Source: Oerskovia jenensis
Lineage (GTDB): Bacteria > Actinomycetota > Actinomycetes > Actinomycetales > Cellulomonadaceae
Assembly (NCBI RefSeq): GCF_016907235.1
Contig: NZ_JAFBBO010000001.1
Coordinates: forward strand, 2,356,001-2,420,000
Length of the DNA: 64,000 bases
Direction: 5' to 3'
Position 1 is the stretch's first letter. The number at the start of each line of letters is the position of its first letter. Below, piece after piece: positions 15,311 through 61,170 of the stretch. The translations under genes and the position numbers were made by a program. The notes under the pieces were generated by a model. The model worked only from the letters and a program-made list of their open reading frames with translations. It searched no databases and had not been told where the DNA came from.

Positions 15311-17104
15311 TCAGCCGAGGTGCACGACGTCGCCCTTCCAGCCACGGCGCAGCCACCGGTCGTGCGAGGCGACGACCACGGCCCCGGGCCACGTCTCGAC
15401 CGCGGCCATGAGCTCCTCCGCGAGCGCGAGCGACACGTGGTTGGTCGGTTCGTCGAGCAGCAGCACGTCGGGGGCCTGCGTCACGAGCATCGCGAGGACC
15501 ACACGCCGCCGCTGGCCCACGCTCAGGAGCCCGAGCGGCCGGTCAAGGTCGCGGGGCGCGACGAGCCCGTGGGCGTCGACGTGCGGTCGGTCCGCGGGGT
15601 CCTGCCCCGTCACGAGGGCGAGCAGGTCGCGCGGCGTGCGCGCGTCGTCGTGCAGGCGGACGTCCTGCTCGAGCAGGGCGACCTCGACGCCCCGTGCGCG
15701 CCCCACGGTGCCCGACGACGGCGCGAGGTCGCCCGCCAGCACGTGCAGCAGCGTGGACTTGCCGGACCCGTTGGCCCCGGTCACGAGCAGCTTGGCCCCC
15801 GGGGCCAGGTCGATCGACGGCACGCCGGCGGCCCGCAGGTCCAGGCGGGGGCGGGCGGGCGAGGCGTCGTCCGGCGCGGTCGCCCCACCCTGCACGACGA
15901 CGTCGCGCGCCCACAGCGCCAGGCCGTCGGTCCCGTTCGACGCCCCCTGGGAGCCGCGTCGACCGCCCGACCGCCCGGGCGACGAGCTCGCGGCCCGCGC
16001 GCGCACCAGGTGCGGCGCCGCGAACCGCAACGGCTCCGGGGGCTTGCGCACCTGCTCGGCCTGGAGCGTGTCGAGGCGCTGCTGCGCGTTGCGCACGCGC
16101 CGAGAGACCTGCGACTGCACGCGCTCACCCTTGGCGTCGTAGAGCAGCTTCGACTGGTTGCCGCGCTCACGGTTGTGCGAGACGTTGCGGGCCGTCGTCG
16201 CGACCGACCGGCGCAGCGCCTTGAGCTCGTCCTGCTCGGCCGCGAACTGCTGCTCCCAGCGGGCACGCTCGACGCGCTTGGCCCGCAGGTAGTCGCGGTA
16301 GCTGCCCGCGTACAGGGTGCCGCCCGTGCGACCCGCGGAGCTGGCCTCCTGCGAGGGATCGAGGTCGAGGATCTCGGTGCAGACCTCGTCGAGGAACACG
16401 CGGTCGTGGCTCGCGAGCAGCACGGCTCCGGGCAGGGCGCGCAGGGCCGACGCGAGGAACTCGGCGGCCTCGTCGTCCAGGTGGTTGGTCGGCTCGTCGA
16501 GCAGGAGCGCACCGGGTTGGCGGACGAGGAGCGCCGCGAGGCCCAGGCGTGTGCGCTGCCCGCCCGAGAGCCGCGAGACCAGGCGGTCGCGGTGGATCAC
16601 GTCGAGGCCCAGGCCCGCGAGGGCGCGGGCCGCACGGGCGTCGGCTCCCCAGACGTCCGACTGCTCGGCGCGCGCGAGCGCCAGGTCGTAGGCCGCGGTG
16701 AGCGGGTTGTCAGAACCAGCGTGGCCCATACCGCTCGCTGACTCTGACAACCCGGCGTCGGACAGGTGCGCGAGGGCAGCCCCGGCCGCCTCGAGCTCGC
16801 GCTCGATCTCCCGGACCCCCGCGAGGGCGTCCTCGACGACCTGGCCGACGGTCGTCGTCGGGCCGTACGGGAACTCCTGGTGCAGGTAGCCGAGGTCCGG
16901 CGGGCGCGTGACCACCCCGGAGTCCGGGTCCTCGACCCCCGCGAGCAGGCGCAGGAGCGTCGACTTGCCGACGCCGTTCTCGCCCACCAACCCGGTCCGG
17001 TGGCCGGGGTCGACGGCGAGGCTCACCCCCGCCAGGACGGTGCGGTCGCCGTAGGACTTGGCGAGGTCGAGGGCCGTGAGGAGGGCGGAAGAGGACTGGG
17101 GCAT
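15311..17104 (-). CDS. ABC-F family ATPase (ribosome-associated, duplicated ATPase)
   Basis: A 597-residue soluble protein with two ABC ATPase domains and no membrane segment, the ABC-F architecture of ribosome-bound translation or antibiotic-protection factors. Domain 1: GENGVGKST (about 42), LSGGQRTRLGLAALL, LLLDEPTNHLDDEA. A helical, arginine-rich linker with RRVRNAQQRLDTLQAEQ follows. Domain 2: GANGSGKST, LSVGQRRRVVLAML, LLLDEPTNHVSLA. Residues about 119-133 are encoded by a 44-bp inverted-repeat element that looks like an in-frame insertion between Walker A and the signature of domain 1. ATG 17104 is chosen because MPQSSSALLTALDLAKSYGDR matches the usual N terminus; the frame remains open upstream without coding character. 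Confidence 0.93.
   Translation of the reverse strand: MPQSSSALLTALDLAKSYGDRTVLAGVSLAVDPGHRTGLVGENGVGKSTLLRLLAGVEDPDSGVVTRPPDLGYLHQEFPYGPTTTVGQVVEDALAGVREIERELEAAGAALAHLSDAGLSESASGMGHAGSDNPLTAAYDLALARAEQSDVWGADARAARALAGLGLDVIHRDRLVSRLSGGQRTRLGLAALLVRQPGALLLDEPTNHLDDEAAEFLASALRALPGAVLLASHDRVFLDEVCTEILDLDPSQEASSAGRTGGTLYAGSYRDYLRAKRVERARWEQQFAAEQDELKALRRSVATTARNVSHNRERGNQSKLLYDAKGERVQSQVSRRVRNAQQRLDTLQAEQVRKPPEPLRFAAPHLVRARAASSSPGRSGGRRGSQGASNGTDGLALWARDVVVQGGATAPDDASPARPRLDLRAAGVPSIDLAPGAKLLVTGANGSGKSTLLHVLAGDLAPSSGTVGRARGVEVALLEQDVRLHDDARTPRDLLALVTGQDPADRPHVDAHGLVAPRDLDRPLGLLSVGQRRRVVLAMLVTQAPDVLLLDEPTNHVSLALAEELMAAVETWPGAVVVASHDRWLRRGWKGDVVHLG
16707..16750 (-). repeat. 44-bp inverted-repeat element inserted in frame in the ABC-F gene (copy 1)
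   Basis: Both ends read TTGTCAGA inward, and the match extends outward by GGG to give 11 perfect terminal bases (16704-16753). Read with the gene it encodes SESASGMGHAGSDN. The last 17 nt (CACGCTGGTTCTGACAA) are identical to copies at 33468-33511 and 34374-34417, which are also 44 bp and in the same reading frame. Confidence 0.75.
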
Positions 17105-26309: not shown

Positions 26310-26440
26310 AGGGAGAACTTATCGGAGTTGTGTCAGAACGAGGGTGCCGGGCCGCGCGACGAGGCCCGACGGCGCCGCTCCCCCGGGTGCGCGGGAGCCC
26401 TCGGGGGCGGCGTGGGTGGGCGGACGGGGCGTGACCGTCC

Positions 26441-32435: not shown

Positions 32436-35400
32436 GTGAGCACCGAACCGCACGGCCCCGCCCGGCCCGACCTGGACCGTCCTCTGGACAGGACTCCGGT
32501 CAGGACCACGGACGGCCCTGCAAGCGCCGGCGCCGACGCCTCCGGTTCTGAGACCGGTGGACAGCAGCGCGAGGGCACGGGCCTGCGTCGTGGTCGCGGG
32601 GGTCGCGGGCGGGCGAAGGCGCAGGCCAGCATGCAGACCCCGGTCCCCGAGCAGGCAGACGAGACCCCCGGCAGCAAGGGCTCCGCTCCGCGCAAGAACC
32701 CCGACCAGCCGCGGAGCGGGAGGGCTCTCGAGGGCGAGCAGACGTCGAGGGGCGAGCGTCCGCCGTCGGGCAGGGAGCAGCGCTCCTCGAAGCGTGGCGA
32801 CCGTCGCGGCGGACGCCCGCAGCAGGTGAGCCCGGCCCGGCTCGCCAAGGCCGCCGAGCGGCGCGCTCAGGTCGTCGTGCCGCCCATCACCTATCCCGAG
32901 CAGCTGCCCGTCTCGGCGCGGCGCGAGGACATCGCGAGGGCCATCGCGGAGAACCAGGTCGTGATCGTCGCGGGCGAGACGGGCTCGGGCAAGACGACCC
33001 AGCTGCCCAAGATCGCGCTCGAGCTCGGGCGGGGCCGGCGGGGCCAGATCGGGCACACGCAGCCGCGACGCATCGCGGCGCGCACGGTCGCGGAGCGCAT
33101 CGCCGAAGAGATCGGCACGCCGCTGGGTGAGATCGTCGGCTACCAGGTCCGGTTCACCGACCAGTCGAGCGAGCAGACGCTCGTCAAGGTCATGACCGAC
33201 GGGATCCTGCTCGCGCAGATCCAGCGCGACCCGCAGCTCCTCGCGTACGACACGCTCATCATCGACGAGGCGCACGAGCGCTCGCTCAACATCGACTTCC
33301 TGCTCGGGTACCTCACGCGGCTCCTGCCGCAGCGGCCCGACCTCAAGGTCATCATCACGTCGGCGACGATCGACTCGCAGCGGTTCGCGCGGCACTTCGC
33401 GCCGGGCGGCCCGCTGCCGCCGCTCACGGCGGACGAGCTGCTCGACGCCGAGTCGTCAGACGCCGAGTCGTCAGACTCAGCGAGCACTCCAGGTCACGCT
33501 GGTTCTGACAACGTGGGAGGCGGGGAGTCCGACGGCGGCGCTCACCGTCCGCCGACGGCTCCCGTCATCGAGGTCACGGGTCGCACGTACCCCGTCGAGA
33601 TCCGGTACCGGCCGCTCGCCCCCGACGTCGACCCCGAGACGGGCAAGGGCCAGCGGGGCAGCGGTCAGTCCAAGAGCCCTGCCAAGGCCCCTGCCAAGCA
33701 GGAGAAGGACCTCGTCACGGGCATCGTCGACGCCGTCGAGGAGCTCATGGCCGAGGGCCCGGGCGACGTCCTGGTGTTCCTGTCGGGCGAGCGCGAGATC
33801 CACGACACGGCCGACGCCCTCGAGTCCCGCCTGGGCGAGCGCACGCGCGATGCCAAGCGCCCCGACTTCGTCGAGATCCTGCCGCTCTACGCGCGCCTGT
33901 CCTCGGCCGAGCAGCACCGTGTGTTCCAGGCGCACTCCTCGCGCCGCGTCGTGCTCGCGACCAACGTCGCCGAGACGTCGCTGACGGTCCCCGGCATCCA
34001 CTACGTCGTCGACCCCGGCACGGCCCGCATCTCGCGCTACTCCAAGGCGACCAAAGTGCAGCGCCTGCCGATCGAGCCCATCGCGCAGGCCAGCGCCAAC
34101 CAGCGCTCGGGACGCTCGGGCCGTGTCGCGGACGGCATCGCGATCCGCCTGTACTCCGAGGAGGACTTCGGTTCCCGACCCGAGTTCACCGAGCCGGAGA
34201 TCCTGCGCACGTCGCTCGCGTCGGTCCTGCTGCAGATGATCTCGGTGGGCGTCGTCTCCTCGCCCGACGACGTCGCGCGCTTCCCGTTCGTCGAGCCCCC
34301 GGACACGCGCTCGATCCGCGACGGCGTGCAGCTCCTGACCGAGCTCGGCGCCCTCGAGACCGTGACCGGCGACGTGTCAGATCGAGCGAGGTCTGGAGAC
34401 CACGCTGGTTCTGACAAGTCGACGACGCGTCTCACCGAGATCGGACGGGTGCTTGCCCAGCTCCCCATGGACCCACGCCTGGCCCGCATGATCTGGGAGG
34501 GCTCGCGCCGCGGCGTCGCGCGCGAGGTCGCGATCATCGCGGCCGTCATGTCCATCCAGGACCCCCGCGAACGTCCCGCCGAGTACCGCGCGCAGGCCGA
34601 CCAGCTGCACGCCCGCTTCGCCGACCCCCGCTCCGACTTCCTCACGTACCTCAACCTGTGGGAGTACGTGCGCGAGCAGCAGCACGAGCTGTCGTCCTCG
34701 GCGTTCCGGCGACTGTGCAAGGCCGAGTACATCAACTTCCTGCGCGTGCGCGAGTGGCAGGACGTCGTCGCGCAGCTCCGCGAGATGAGCAAGCCCCTCG
34801 GCATCGACATGTCCTACACGCCCCGCACCCGGGGCGACGCGGGCTCCGGAAAGGGAGCGCCGTCGTCGGGCACCACGATCGCCGAGGCGACCGACCAACC
34901 CGTCGAACGCCGCCTCACCTGGGACGACGACACCATCCACCAGGCCCTCCTCGCCGGGCTGCTGTCGCAGATCGGCATGCAGGAGGCGACCGAGGTCAAG
35001 GCGTCGTCGGTCGCGCACCTGCGCGGCCCGCAGAAGGAGCTCGCCATGAAGCGGGCCAAGAAGCAGGCCCGCAACGAGTACCTCGGGGCCCGCGGTGCAC
35101 GCTTCGCGATCTTCCCCGGCTCGCCCCTGTCCAAGAAGCCCCCCGTGTGGGTCATGGCGGGCGAGCTCGTCGAGACCAGCCGCCTGTGGGGTCGCGACGT
35201 CGCGAAGATCCAGCCCGAGTGGGCCGAGGAGCTCGCGACACACCTGGTCAAGCGCACCTACTCCGAGCCGCACTGGTCCACCAAGCAGGGCGCCGCGCAG
35301 GCCAAGGAGAAGGTCCTGCTCTACGGCGTGCCCATCGTCGCCGACCGCACCGTGCTCTACGGCAAGGTCGACCCCGAGGCCGCGCGCGAGATGTTCATCC

Positions 35401-37415
35401 GCCACGCCCTCGTCCAGGGCGAGTGGACCACGCACCACCAGTTCTTCCACGAGAACCGCCGCCTGCTCGAGGAGGCCGAAGAGCTCGAGGCGCGCTCGCG
35501 TCAGCGCGGCCTCGTCGTCGACGACGACGTCCTCTTCGCGTTCTACGACGAGCGCATCCCCGACGACGTCGTGTCCGCACGCCACTTCGACACCTGGTGG
35601 AGGTCCGCGAAGCGCCGCGACCCCGACCTGCTGACCTTCACGCTCGAGCAGCTCGTGCCCGACGCCGAGTCGGTCGACACCTCGCTCTTCCCCGCGACCT
35701 GGGTCCAGGGCGACCTCACGCTGCCGCTCACCTACCAGTTCCAGCCCGGTACGGACGCCGACGGCGTGACCGTGCACATCCCCATCAGCGTGCTGAACCG
35801 CGTCGTCCCCGACGGCTTCGACTGGATGGTCCCCGGCCTCCTCGACGAGCTCGCGACCGCGACCATCCGCTCGCTGCCCAAGCCCGTGCGCGTCCAGCTC
35901 GTCCCCGCGCCCGACGTCGCACGCGACGTCGTCGCCTGGCTCCGCGAGAACACCCCCGCCTGGGAGGACGTCACCCGTGCGGGAGACATGGCAGAGCCCT
36001 TCCACGTCGCGTTCACCCGAGCCGTGCGCGCCCTGCGCGACGTCGTCATCCCCGACGACGCCTGGGACGACACCCGCGTCGAACGCCTGCCCGCGCACCT
36101 GCGCATGACGTTCCGCGTCATCGAGGAACGCCGCGGCGGCGAGGTCGTGCTCGACGAGTCCAAGGACCTCGTCTCGCTCCAGCGACGCCTCGCGCCCCAG
36201 GCGCAGGCGGCGGTGCGGGCGGCCGTCAAGGGGGCGGTCGGAGCGGCGTTGCGTGAGGCTGCTGCCGGGGCGGAGGGTGAGGCGGGATCGGCGCTCGGTC
36301 TTCCCGGGTCTGCTCGTTCCTCGCAGACCCCTGCCAGGCCCACCACGACCTTCGCCACCGATCCCGCCTCACCCTCCTCCGCTTCCGGGCGGCCTTCCGC
36401 GGGCCGTCCTGGTGGGGGCTCAGGTGGTGCTGGTGAGAACGGGGCGCCCGACGGCGGCGTGGCCTCCGTGGTCGTCGCCGAGGCGACCGGGCTCACCACG
36501 TGGCCCACGGGACTTCCCGACGGGGTGCTGCCCGAGGTCGTGTCGACGCCCGCCGGGGGCGGCATGATCGTGCGCGGGTACCCCGCGCTCGTCGAGGAGG
36601 TCGACGCCAAGGGCAAGCCGTCGGTCGCGTTGCGGGTGCTCGCCGACCGCTCGGCGCAGGACCGTGAGCACACGCGCGGCGTCCGGCGCCTGCTGCTCGG
36701 GGAGACCGCGCTGCAGACTCCCCGGATCACGAGCCGCTGGACCGGGACACAGTCCCTGACCATGGCCGCGAGCCCGTACCGGAACACCGAGGCGCTCGTC
36801 GCCGACCTCCAGCTCGCGGCCGTCATCACGCTCACGTCGGGGGCCAAGGCCTCGCAGTACGGGCCGCTGCCGGATGCTGTACAGATTCGCAGCGCCGAGT
36901 CGTACGCCGCCACGCGCGACCTCGTGAAGCGGCACCTGGAGAACGAGGTGCACCAGATCGTCGGGCACGTCGTCGCGGCCCTCACGGCCGCACGGAACCT
37001 GGACGGCGAGATCCGCTCGGCCAACAGCCTCGCGCTGCTCAACACGCTCCAGGACGTCCGCGACCAGGTCGCCGGGCTCGTGGGCGTGGGCTTCGTGTCC
37101 CGCACCCCGCCCCACCGCCTGCCGCACCTGACCCGCTACCTGCGGGCCGCGTCGTACCGGATCGAGAAGGCCGCGACCAACCCGCACCGCGACGCCGAGC
37201 TCGCGTGGCGGGTGCACGACGTCGAGGAGGCGTACGCCAAGGCGCGTGCCGCCTACGCGTCCGGCCTCGCCGACGCTGCCCGCCTCGCCGAGCTCGACGA
37301 GGCGCGCTGGCTCATCGAGGAGTTCCGGGTCTCGCTGTTCGCGCAGCAGCTCGGGACCGACGGGCCCGTGAGCGAGAAGCGCATCCGGAAGGTGCTCGCG
37401 CCCGGCGGGTGGTGA
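32436..37415 (+). CDS. hrpA: ATP-dependent RNA helicase HrpA, giant form with two inserted repeat elements
   Basis: A 1,659-residue DEAH helicase, longer than the roughly 1,300 residues of the E. coli protein. A basic disordered N terminus (about 145 residues) precedes the helicase core: GETGSGKTTQLPK (about 181), TQPRRIAARTVAERIA, DEAHERSLN (about 278), ITSATID, FLSGEREIHD and QRSGRSGRVADG (about 553). Helicase-associated and OB-fold regions follow, then a DUF3418-type C-terminal region and an extra Pro/Ser/Gly linker at about 1285-1350. Two 44-bp inverted-repeat elements lie in frame at about residues 345-359 and 647-661. HrpA-type helicases rescue stalled ribosomes or process mRNA. I prefer GTG 32436; an in-frame TTG lies at 32418. 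Confidence 0.93.
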   Translation: MSTEPHGPARPDLDRPLDRTPVRTTDGPASAGADASGSETGGQQREGTGLRRGRGGRGRAKAQASMQTPVPEQADETPGSKGSAPRKNPDQPRSGRALEGEQTSRGERPPSGREQRSSKRGDRRGGRPQQVSPARLAKAAERRAQVVVPPITYPEQLPVSARREDIARAIAENQVVIVAGETGSGKTTQLPKIALELGRGRRGQIGHTQPRRIAARTVAERIAEEIGTPLGEIVGYQVRFTDQSSEQTLVKVMTDGILLAQIQRDPQLLAYDTLIIDEAHERSLNIDFLLGYLTRLLPQRPDLKVIITSATIDSQRFARHFAPGGPLPPLTADELLDAESSDAESSDSASTPGHAGSDNVGGGESDGGAHRPPTAPVIEVTGRTYPVEIRYRPLAPDVDPETGKGQRGSGQSKSPAKAPAKQEKDLVTGIVDAVEELMAEGPGDVLVFLSGEREIHDTADALESRLGERTRDAKRPDFVEILPLYARLSSAEQHRVFQAHSSRRVVLATNVAETSLTVPGIHYVVDPGTARISRYSKATKVQRLPIEPIAQASANQRSGRSGRVADGIAIRLYSEEDFGSRPEFTEPEILRTSLASVLLQMISVGVVSSPDDVARFPFVEPPDTRSIRDGVQLLTELGALETVTGDVSDRARSGDHAGSDKSTTRLTEIGRVLAQLPMDPRLARMIWEGSRRGVAREVAIIAAVMSIQDPRERPAEYRAQADQLHARFADPRSDFLTYLNLWEYVREQQHELSSSAFRRLCKAEYINFLRVREWQDVVAQLREMSKPLGIDMSYTPRTRGDAGSGKGAPSSGTTIAEATDQPVERRLTWDDDTIHQALLAGLLSQIGMQEATEVKASSVAHLRGPQKELAMKRAKKQARNEYLGARGARFAIFPGSPLSKKPPVWVMAGELVETSRLWGRDVAKIQPEWAEELATHLVKRTYSEPHWSTKQGAAQAKEKVLLYGVPIVADRTVLYGKVDPEAAREMFIRHALVQGEWTTHHQFFHENRRLLEEAEELEARSRQRGLVVDDDVLFAFYDERIPDDVVSARHFDTWWRSAKRRDPDLLTFTLEQLVPDAESVDTSLFPATWVQGDLTLPLTYQFQPGTDADGVTVHIPISVLNRVVPDGFDWMVPGLLDELATATIRSLPKPVRVQLVPAPDVARDVVAWLRENTPAWEDVTRAGDMAEPFHVAFTRAVRALRDVVIPDDAWDDTRVERLPAHLRMTFRVIEERRGGEVVLDESKDLVSLQRRLAPQAQAAVRAAVKGAVGAALREAAAGAEGEAGSALGLPGSARSSQTPARPTTTFATDPASPSSASGRPSAGRPGGGSGGAGENGAPDGGVASVVVAEATGLTTWPTGLPDGVLPEVVSTPAGGGMIVRGYPALVEEVDAKGKPSVALRVLADRSAQDREHTRGVRRLLLGETALQTPRITSRWTGTQSLTMAASPYRNTEALVADLQLAAVITLTSGAKASQYGPLPDAVQIRSAESYAATRDLVKRHLENEVHQIVGHVVAALTAARNLDGEIRSANSLALLNTLQDVRDQVAGLVGVGFVSRTPPHRLPHLTRYLRAASYRIEKAATNPHRDAELAWRVHDVEEAYAKARAAYASGLADAARLAELDEARWLIEEFRVSLFAQQLGTDGPVSEKRIRKVLAPGGW
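33444..33473 (+). repeat. 15-bp tandem duplication at the edge of inverted-repeat element copy 2
   Basis: GACGCCGAGTCGTCA occurs twice in a row (33444-33458 and 33459-33473). The second copy runs into the left end of the 44-bp element, so the left terminus TCGTCAGA is itself duplicated. It may be a scar of insertion or slippage. Confidence 0.7.
33468..33511 (+). repeat. 44-bp inverted-repeat element in hrpA (copy 2)
   Basis: Ends TCGTCAGA and TCTGACAA are inverted with one mismatch. It encodes SSDSASTPGHAGSDN. The left 18 nt after the terminal dinucleotide match copy 1 almost fully (GTCAGAxTCAGCGAGC) and the right 17 nt are identical. It lies in a variable acidic stretch between the SAT motif and the next conserved helicase strand, where an insertion would be tolerated. 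Confidence 0.75.
34374..34417 (+). repeat. 44-bp inverted-repeat element in hrpA (copy 3)
   Basis: Ends GTGTCAGA and TCTGACAA. It encodes VSDRARSGDHAGSDK. The right 17 nt are identical to the other two copies and the length is again exactly 44. It is placed in a loop between the VTGD and TRLTEIG segments of the post-helicase winged region. Confidence 0.75.
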
Positions 37416-60823: not shown

Positions 60824-61065
60824 ATCCGCCAGGGTATTGCCCGCGTCGTCCGAACGCCCATCCGCCGCGGCGACCAGCCCGTATGTCACAGGCCGCTGGG
60901 CGGGAGACGGGCGTAGGTTGTAAGGACACCGGTCGGCCCGACGAAGGGTCCGCCGGGGCGCGCGCACACCGCGAGACGAGTCGACTCCCCGACGCCAGAC
61001 CCTTCCGTCTCACGCTTCGAGCAGATACTGGCTCGCATCATGGATTCCCCCTACGATCGTCACCA
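60824..61065. other. Divergent intergenic region between the NYN gene and the met operon
   Basis: About 240 bp holding the promoters for the leftward NYN gene and the rightward methionine operon. I see no gene. A possible -10 for the met operon is TATACTG-like within GCAGATACTGG (61021-61031), about 40 nt before the riboswitch; no operator stands out. Confidence 0.4.
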
Positions 61066-61162
61066 CCATCCAGAGCGGTCGAGAGTCCTGGCTCGTTGAC
61101 ACCGCAGCAACCCCCCAACGGAAGCCTCCCGCGGGTACGGGTGCTACAGCCAGGTTCGATGG
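61066..61162 (+). promoter_or_regulatory. SAM-I (S-box) riboswitch
   Basis: The conserved S-box blocks appear in order: P1 CCATC (61066-61070) with GATGG (61158-61162); AGAG then P2 GCGGT (61075-61079) with ACCGC (61101-61105); the CTGGCT segment (61088-61093) pairing with AGCCAG (61148-61153); the invariant GCAGCAACC; and GGGTGCTAC before P1 closes. SAM-I riboswitches bind S-adenosylmethionine and shut off methionine genes. Just downstream GGAGCG (61161-61166) is the ribosome site of a leader ORF, so P1 closure would hide it and control would be translational. No terminator hairpin with a T run follows. Confidence 0.9.
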
Positions 61163-61170
61163 AGCGATTC

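Follow-up and report, generated by a model that had tools for sequence, protein, structure and literature searches.

The element and its host genes

The stretch analysed here, 64,000 nucleotides of the Oerskovia jenensis genome (contig NZ_JAFBBO010000001.1, positions 2,356,001 to 2,420,000; hereafter the window), holds three copies of a 42-bp palindromic element, all lying in frame inside protein-coding genes, and our subject is this element, its dispersal in the Cellulomonadaceae and an AbiEi/DUF559-like gene that accompanies it. The first copy (16708..16749, minus strand, read ..LSESASGMGHAGSDN..) lies in a gene for an ATPase with two ABC domains (15311..17104, minus strand; Pfam PF00005, 1.2e-46, two stretches), which we take to be of the ABC-F type. 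The other two lie in the gene for an HrpA-type DEAH RNA helicase (32631..37415, plus strand; Pfam DUF3418, 4e-194, with OB_NTP_bind, HA2_C and DEAD), at site B (33469..33510, plus strand, read ..SSDSASTPGHAGSDN..) and site C (34375..34416, plus strand, read ..VSDRARSGDHAGSDK..); the limits of both genes come from a simple gene caller. The three copies depart from the consensus by two, three and one mismatches, respectively, and their peptides end in HAGSDN, HAGSDN and HAGSDK.

An earlier note on this DNA had described three 44-bp segments with inverted ends and an identical right-hand 17 nt, all inside genes and all read in one frame that ends in HAGSD(N/K). The positions, the inverted ends, the shared right end and the common frame in the ABC ATPase gene (one copy) and hrpA (two copies) all hold, but the length does not: the repeated unit is 42 bp, TGTCAGAACSAGCGWG-N10-CWCGCTSGTTCTGACA, and the flanking T/A of the 44-mer (16707-16750 in the ABC ATPase gene) differs between copies. 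The right end, CACGCTGGTTCTGACAA, is exact at 16707-16723 (minus strand), 33495-33511 and 34401-34417 (both plus strand), and at up to three mismatches the window yields five matches where shuffles predict 0.10. The two beyond the exact ones are the first copy's second arm and a lone three-mismatch match at 26330-26346. At the left end of site B, positions 33453-33476 (TCGTCAGACGCCGAGTCGTCAGAC) contain the left-end motif of the element twice, perhaps through a local duplication.

The nearest named HrpA orthologs are those of Oerskovia species, several at 89-90% identity, and among them both sites vary in length, as the earlier note had supposed of its host loops: the element occupies both in O. 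turbata and is missing from both in O. douganii. Site B is also without a copy in O. rustica, and at site C the O. turbata and window copies are identical at 40 of 42 bases. A copy with central bases nearly identical to those of the ABC ATPase copy occurs in O. rustica (G024:C33). The earlier note had allowed that the peptide might prove to be ancestral in distant families, or that the genome might hold no further copies. As it turned out, no element (at up to six mismatches) is found in the other 62 named HrpA loci, O. turbata's copies apart, in a search that did not include the HAGSD peptide itself, and further genomic copies are abundant.

Dispersal within the genome and the family

The O. 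jenensis genome (G000) contains 92 copies of the 42-bp pattern at up to three mismatches, most of them intergenic, whilst a reversed-pattern control finds none; the further copies that the earlier note had proposed to search for are plentiful. Among the matches listed, copies range from 0.52 to 4.20 Mb on a contig of 4.45 Mb and cluster at 1.84-1.86 Mb and at 2.81-2.94 Mb. Six other Oerskovia genomes hold 4, 0, 2, 21, 19 and 76 copies of the pattern. Across the genomes behind 35 of the 63 named HrpA loci, the element is present in four of six Oerskovia (76 copies in O. turbata, 19 in O. rustica, 4 in O. douganii and 2 in O. merdavium; 0 in both O. enterophila and O. flava) and in none of the 29 others.

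The length of the element is nearly constant. When the gap between the ends was left free (10-38 bases), all matches listed, from five genomes of four genera, span 42 bp, and in the G000 stretches every one of the 84 TGTCAGA/TCTGACA pairs lying up to 100 bp apart does so too; looser scans with shorter ends added one 96-bp span (G002) and one 76-bp span (G009). In these G000 stretches, which were chosen around copies, none of 154 arms is unpaired, and an insertion sequence (IS) or miniature inverted-repeat transposable element (MITE) that uses these terminal repeats is disfavoured on this ground. With the 9-bp ends held at a 42-bp span and one mismatch allowed, matches occur in 25 of 221 Cellulomonadaceae genomes (controls 0), and with exact ends in five of 396 genomes of the order, all five within the Cellulomonadaceae.

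The interior of the element is lineage-specific, reading GTGGCCGG... in O. enterophila, CTGGGGTACC... in genome G060 and GTGGTGCCCGTATAC in G211, and in some lineages the ends differ as well, being TGTCAGG...CCTGACA in G195 and CGTCCGA...TCGGACG in G087, both of which score 0 with the Oerskovia ends. Most lineages seen begin TGTC at both ends, whereas the G087 and G011b variants have CGTCCG at both. Scanned for their own type, 200 kb of G195 gave three further copies and one weak match (control 0), and 400 kb of G087 gave one clear copy, three variants within about 12 kb of the AbiEi/DUF559-like gene and two weak matches (control 1). When the 63 named HrpA loci were scanned for palindromes of 42 bp with at least 17 of 21 pairs, 28 matches came up, against none in shuffles. 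Five of these, all from Promicromonospora strains, have TGTCAGAC...GTCTGAC ends and lie near the hrpA start (L089:1796, L091:1008, L095:1783, L099:1816 and L112:1796); they are likely to represent a further subfamily. The CGTCCG-ended variants (L206:1292 and 2452; L203:1372, 1435 and 2551) flank more distant relatives of the gene (identities of 35 and 38%), a hint that the system extends beyond what the TGTCAG ends reveal.

No exact-end pattern was found in viral contigs and no match to the Oerskovia consensus in plasmids, nor does the AbiEi/DUF559-like protein have a relative in either collection, and a phage or plasmid origin was accordingly set aside.

An AbiEi/DUF559-like gene bracketed by the elements

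In G000 a gene for a protein of about 311 residues (G000:C1:1852950-1853885, minus strand), comprising an AbiEi-like N-terminal region and a putatively DUF559-like C-terminal region, stands between two pairs of elements (L049). G006, G002 and G003 have a homolog at this position, in each case between elements of that genome's own type, whilst the gene is missing from that place in G001, G004 and G005. A profile built from these four proteins (threshold E<=1e-25) was run against 48 genomes, namely all 25 with any element match and 23 hand-picked ones without. The gene was found in 17 of them: 13 of the 18 with at least two elements, two of the seven with one and two of the 23 with none (Fisher p 4e-5 for 13/18 versus 2/23). 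Among 19 distinct genes, in which count two G211 rows are a single split gene, elements lie on both sides of 15, on one side of two (G011a and G189) and on neither side of two (G251 and G213); composition-shuffled loci yield only 0.023 such 42-bp palindromes (at least 16 of 21 pairs) per kb. In G195 and G087, the two carriers without a match to the Oerskovia ends, the gene is surrounded by ends of their own type, and further copies lie elsewhere.

Distances were measured at 13 loci: on the upstream side the closest element lies 22-183 bp ahead of the called start, and on the downstream side the closest one overlaps the stop codon or lies within 30 bp of it. A common layout is one pair within about 210 bp upstream of the start and another at or just past the stop. 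In five genomes, the interiors of flanking and dispersed copies are alike within a genome (identity 0.59-0.76) and unlike between genomes (0.22-0.48), and the repeat type therefore follows the gene. The gene itself is under purifying selection in three close pairs (ratios of non-synonymous to synonymous substitution of 0.145, 0.084 and 0.163; the ratio for G000-G002 is 0.43). It looks broken in some genomes, being split across two overlapping matches in G211 (L201/L205), internally shortened in G193 (L202) and N-terminally short as called in G011a (L194), with elements remaining nearby in each.

The G000 locus lies between genes for what we take, from reading the sequences, to be a PitA-type phosphate permease and a NUDIX protein, and by the same reading no AbiEii-like partner stands beside the gene there. 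The unit is oriented in G000 and G006 opposite to that in G002 and G003, and the G000 and G002 proteins are only 57% identical, compared with 98% for PitA and 91% for the NUDIX protein, which suggests that the gene unit arrived separately in two Oerskovia lineages. This pitA-NUDIX interval (L049:13000-16300 and the orthologous stretches L172-L178) is variable beyond the two orientations of the bracketed gene: if the names read from the sequences are right, G004 has a lipoprotein/ABC set there and G001 an ABC transporter pair, whilst G005 has only a degenerate element. At another locus, in the O. douganii-like genome G001 (L147:6914-8928), AbiEi_2 and AbiEii-like genes lie between two elements after what is presumably a YhgE/Pip-like gene; at the equivalent site the AbiEi_2/AbiEii-like genes are missing from G000, G005 and G006, each of which has just one element. 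The elements may serve as cassette boundaries. The AbiE-like cassette of O. douganii was for a time a candidate mobiliser and was dropped in favour of the recurrent AbiEi/DUF559-like gene.

Such loci bear on one alternative, that the elements are MITE-like palindromes moved in trans by an unrelated transposase and that the AbiEi/DUF559-like gene is captured cargo. The elements do flank other cargo, as the AbiEi/AbiEii-like pair and the changing contents of the pitA-NUDIX locus illustrate. Capture would not, however, predict that a single gene family is bracketed by its own type of element, in matching subfamilies, in many genomes, and the G000 stretches around copies contain no unpaired arms and no longer element with these ends. 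The Y1 transposase, moreover, is absent from 19 genomes, other transposase families not having been searched for, and we regard the cargo explanation as improbable.

The alignment of the protein comprises 16 members, three broken or partial genes of the 19 having been excluded. PADLOC AbiEi models match all 16 (best E 2.1e-21; residues 11-186 in the G000 protein), whereas Pfam AbiEi_4 is weak (10 of 16, best 0.00048). Seven C-terminal residues are invariant in the 16 sequences (E209, D211, D241, E255, D257, H261 and D270), and we liken the C-terminal signature, LDxxW...VExDGxGH...D..R, to DUF559 and Vsr-like nucleases; the C-terminal region is tentatively assigned as a DUF559-like nuclease of the PD-(D/E)XK type. 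As to the N-terminal region, a study of AbiEi antitoxins (PMC7319586) describes them as autoregulators that bind two 23-bp inverted repeats 3 bp apart, one relative binding two pairs of such repeats upstream of its own gene. The two half-sites of about 21 bp in the 42-bp element fit this mode of binding.

That likeness also lends something to a second alternative, in which the AbiEi/DUF559-like protein acts as a regulator or as a nucleoid protein and its elements serve a regulon or the organisation of the genome, kept for transcription control or termination and not selfish. In its favour are the autoregulation reported for AbiEi proteins (PMC7319586), the copies upstream of the protein's own gene, the conserved half-sites, the fixed length and, as set out in the next section, the concentration of copies just past stop codons. 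The number of Oerskovia-type copies nevertheless runs from 0 to 92 within one genus, copies lie in coding regions, very few lie between divergent genes, and the interiors turn over between lineages jointly with the copies at the gene, so that a regulon seems to us an unlikely explanation, much on a level with cargo.

Placement of the copies and a single reading frame

Placement was examined in 47 G000 stretches around listed copies, which hold 87 of the 92 copies and give 88 rows (one with five mismatches), gene limits being approximate as they come from our own simple codon-usage gene caller. Of these rows, 26 are wholly inside genes, five contain the gene's stop codon, 35 are intergenic between tandem genes, 16 between convergent and only six between divergent genes. 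Genes contain far fewer copies than their share of the DNA would give, 31 of 87 compared with 88% coding DNA in the window (p 8e-31), and 30 of the 35 tandem intergenic copies sit nearer to the stop codon of the preceding gene (median 18 bp) than to the start codon of the following one (median 97 bp). Copies also tend to be paired at a set distance: when consecutive starts are less than 400 bp apart, the distance is 62 or 63 bp in 11 of 16 cases, which leaves the elements 20-21 bp apart, with spacers that look dissimilar by eye. Spacings below 300 bp fall at 61-63 bp in all eight cases in G060 and all eight in G211, and the pairs around the gene are wider in G002 and G003 (85-94 bp).

The copies that do overlap genes keep to one frame. 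All 31 such copies in G000 share the frame xTG TCA GAA ... and mostly encode (V/L)SE(P/R)...GSD, and of the wholly internal copies in stretches around listed copies from three genera, 26 of 26 in G000, two of two in G060 and six of six in G211 are read in a single frame, the peptides of the latter two genomes including VSEPQGALGTRGSD and LSEPGEGIGERGSD; one partial copy in G211 uses a different frame. The frame used is not the most open one. Of the 174 readings that the 87 copies give in both orientations, 86 leave the used frame open and 172 leave open one alternative frame, but none the third. The used frame is closed when the arm is AGCGTG followed by A, and among the internal copies 19 of 26 have AGCGAG and three of 26 AGCGGG.

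A preference for certain target sites might be thought sufficient to account for this bias. A target model derived from the flanks of intergenic copies, however, predicts 51-57% in the used phase, and weighting by open frames raises this only to about 52-69% (by our own arithmetic), so that the probability of 26 of 26 by chance is about 7e-5 at most; a mere target-site effect was rejected on this comparison. We infer instead that selection acts against the other open frame, whose peptide is more hydrophobic.

A proposed mechanism and the evidence weighed

The system is best read as a repeat-plus-nuclease system organised like the repetitive extragenic palindromes (REPs) and their REP-associated tyrosine transposases (RAYTs) but with an unrelated protein. 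The element would be the dispersed binding site of a dedicated protein, consisting of two inverted half-sites of about 21 bp with conserved ends, and each carrier lineage would have its own version of the element and usually one AbiEi/DUF559-like gene. On this model a dimer of the protein would bind the element, and the protein's putative nuclease activity would make the element mobile: the protein would cut at a bound copy or about two helical turns from it, and repair would install a new copy there. The pairs at 61-63 bp could then arise because cutting, or the reach of the protein, extends about 20 bp outward from a bound copy. New copies would survive mainly after stop codons and, inside genes, in the one frame that encodes the hydrophilic SE(P/R)...GSD peptide. 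The element, its 42-bp length, its lineage versions, its association with and bracketing of the gene, and the biases of frame and position are observed; that a dedicated protein binds and spreads the element, by binding, cutting, mobilisation and repair as outlined, we consider fairly probable.

The pairing of the two half-sites bears on a third alternative, in which the elements are hairpins of the REP or Rickettsia palindromic element (RPE) type that act through single-stranded DNA or RNA structure, as terminators or stabilisers of mRNA. Near-perfect palindromes placed past stop codons are what such hairpins would look like. In 80 distinct G000 copies, though, the half-sites are nearly independent at the two variable arm positions, position 10 (C/G) pairing in 56% of copies against 50% expected and position 15 (A/T) in 46% against 51%, as expected for two protein-bound halves and not for a hairpin. 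The single length of 42 bp in all matches listed, the lack of a Y1 transposase and the lack of any Rfam match to an element from six sources searched also argue against hairpins, which we rate as very unlikely and the least probable of the three alternatives, even with the excess of pairing at a few positions that is described below.

Several observations weigh against the mechanism that we favour, in which a dedicated protein spreads the element. In G000, position 20 pairs more often than in shuffles (8 of 300 attain the observed value), and so do positions 10 and 12 in G060 (13 and 11 of 300) and positions 10, 16, 18 and 21 in G211 (2, 9, 13 and 0 of 300); this may leave room for selection on the palindrome itself, and related copies can also produce such an excess. 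The upstream elements might be no more than an operator through which the gene is autoregulated. As regards the protein, Pfam DUF559 matches only four of the 16 members, weakly (best 0.062), the nuclease assignment is a reading of motifs, and a PDB profile search with the protein gave nothing significant. As regards distribution, the gene is missing, at a threshold of E<=1e-25, from five of the 18 genomes that carry two or more elements (G001, G004, G005, G069 and G187), one of which, G069, has 24 elements in an assembly of 660 contigs; the G251 and G213 genes have no recognisable flanking element, two further genes are flanked on one side only, and 200 kb of G009 contain no copies away from the gene. 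Finally, no element movement has been observed, and neither a clean empty site nor a target duplication was found in hrpA, at another single site or in a comparison of 16 sites with six other genomes, the sites compared differing by more than the insert.

Bases identical on both flanks of a copy show no marked excess, the first position giving 21 against 17.2 expected and the fifth 35 against 29.1. Some copies are old: all six other genomes have, in the corresponding position, a counterpart of the one at L062:13094, degenerate to varying degrees.

Comparison with known systems

The closest parallel in organisation is with the REP/RAYT systems (REPtrons), with which the present system shares short, dispersed, mostly extragenic and often paired palindromes and a dedicated, repeat-flanked gene of matching subfamily. 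The protein is of another kind, however, being AbiEi-like and DUF559-like and not a Y1 HUH tyrosine transposase. The earlier note had raised the question of whether a REP-type transposase is encoded, and the answer is negative: the Y1 family (PF01797) has no match at E<=0.001 in O. jenensis and 18 relatives, whilst a positive control matches five of 14 known genomes, and membership of the REP/RAYT class was rejected for this reason. The repeats differ as well, in that GTAG is not seen, the ends being TGTCAGA...TCTGACA on both sides with a flank composition that has no GTAG consensus, and in that all matches listed are 42 bp long with a conserved motif at both ends.

The Rickettsia RPEs, which the earlier note had offered as an analogy, are likewise palindromes that occur both between genes and, read in frame, within many unrelated ones, and in behaviour the analogy is borne out, with 26 of 88 rows wholly inside genes in one frame and eight more such copies in two other genera. 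To our knowledge no dedicated enzyme is known for RPEs. RPEs are about 150 bp long according to a review (PMC10969869), a described length and not a sequence being what is compared here, whereas the present element is 42 bp, has a dedicated gene and occurs in several actinobacterial genera. The CGTC-tagged REPs of Di Nocera et al. (2013) are also short palindromes, some of them intragenic, and according to that paper (PMC3733652) they are without a dedicated transposase; two variants here begin CGTCCG, but here the conserved end is found at both ends, forms part of the palindrome and comes with an associated gene.

With the AbiEi antitoxins of type IV toxin-antitoxin systems, the protein shares a similar DNA-binding region (by the PADLOC models) and inverted repeats of about 21-23 bp near the gene. 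It differs from AbiE systems in having, by reading of the G000 locus, no AbiEii-like neighbour, and in its C-terminal nuclease-like region and tens of dispersed sites. From the DUF559 and Vsr-like nucleases it is set apart by its fusion to an AbiEi-like region and by its link with repeats, and we know of no other such case. Nor do we know of any repeat class tied to such a protein; no description of the system was found among the matches listed from open-licence PMC papers, a search outside which lay subscription papers and repeat sequence databases.

Elsewhere in the window, a S-adenosylmethionine (SAM) riboswitch lies at 61063-61165 (plus strand; RF00162, 49.2 bits).

Significance

Taken as a whole, and with a shade less confidence than we have in the dedicated protein as such, we lean towards a new actinobacterial mobile system, in which a nuclease would disperse its own 42-bp site, enzyme and repeat would form lineage-specific pairs, and SE(P/R)...GSD peptides would be written into host proteins, the whole amounting to an independent, nuclease-based counterpart of REP/RAYT. 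The GTAG REPs are a class of palindromes with a candidate enzyme, and we know of no enzyme attached to the spread of protein-coding palindromes of the RPE type; the present family, which lies in genes in a fixed frame, is paired with a candidate enzyme of a different kind. As the hosts are free-living and culturable, mobility can be tested both in vitro and by passage. Should a nuclease indeed insert a 42-bp sequence at chosen distances, this would be a new chemistry for small insertions, and nuclease-repeat pairs with other end sequences may sit unnoticed in many genomes.

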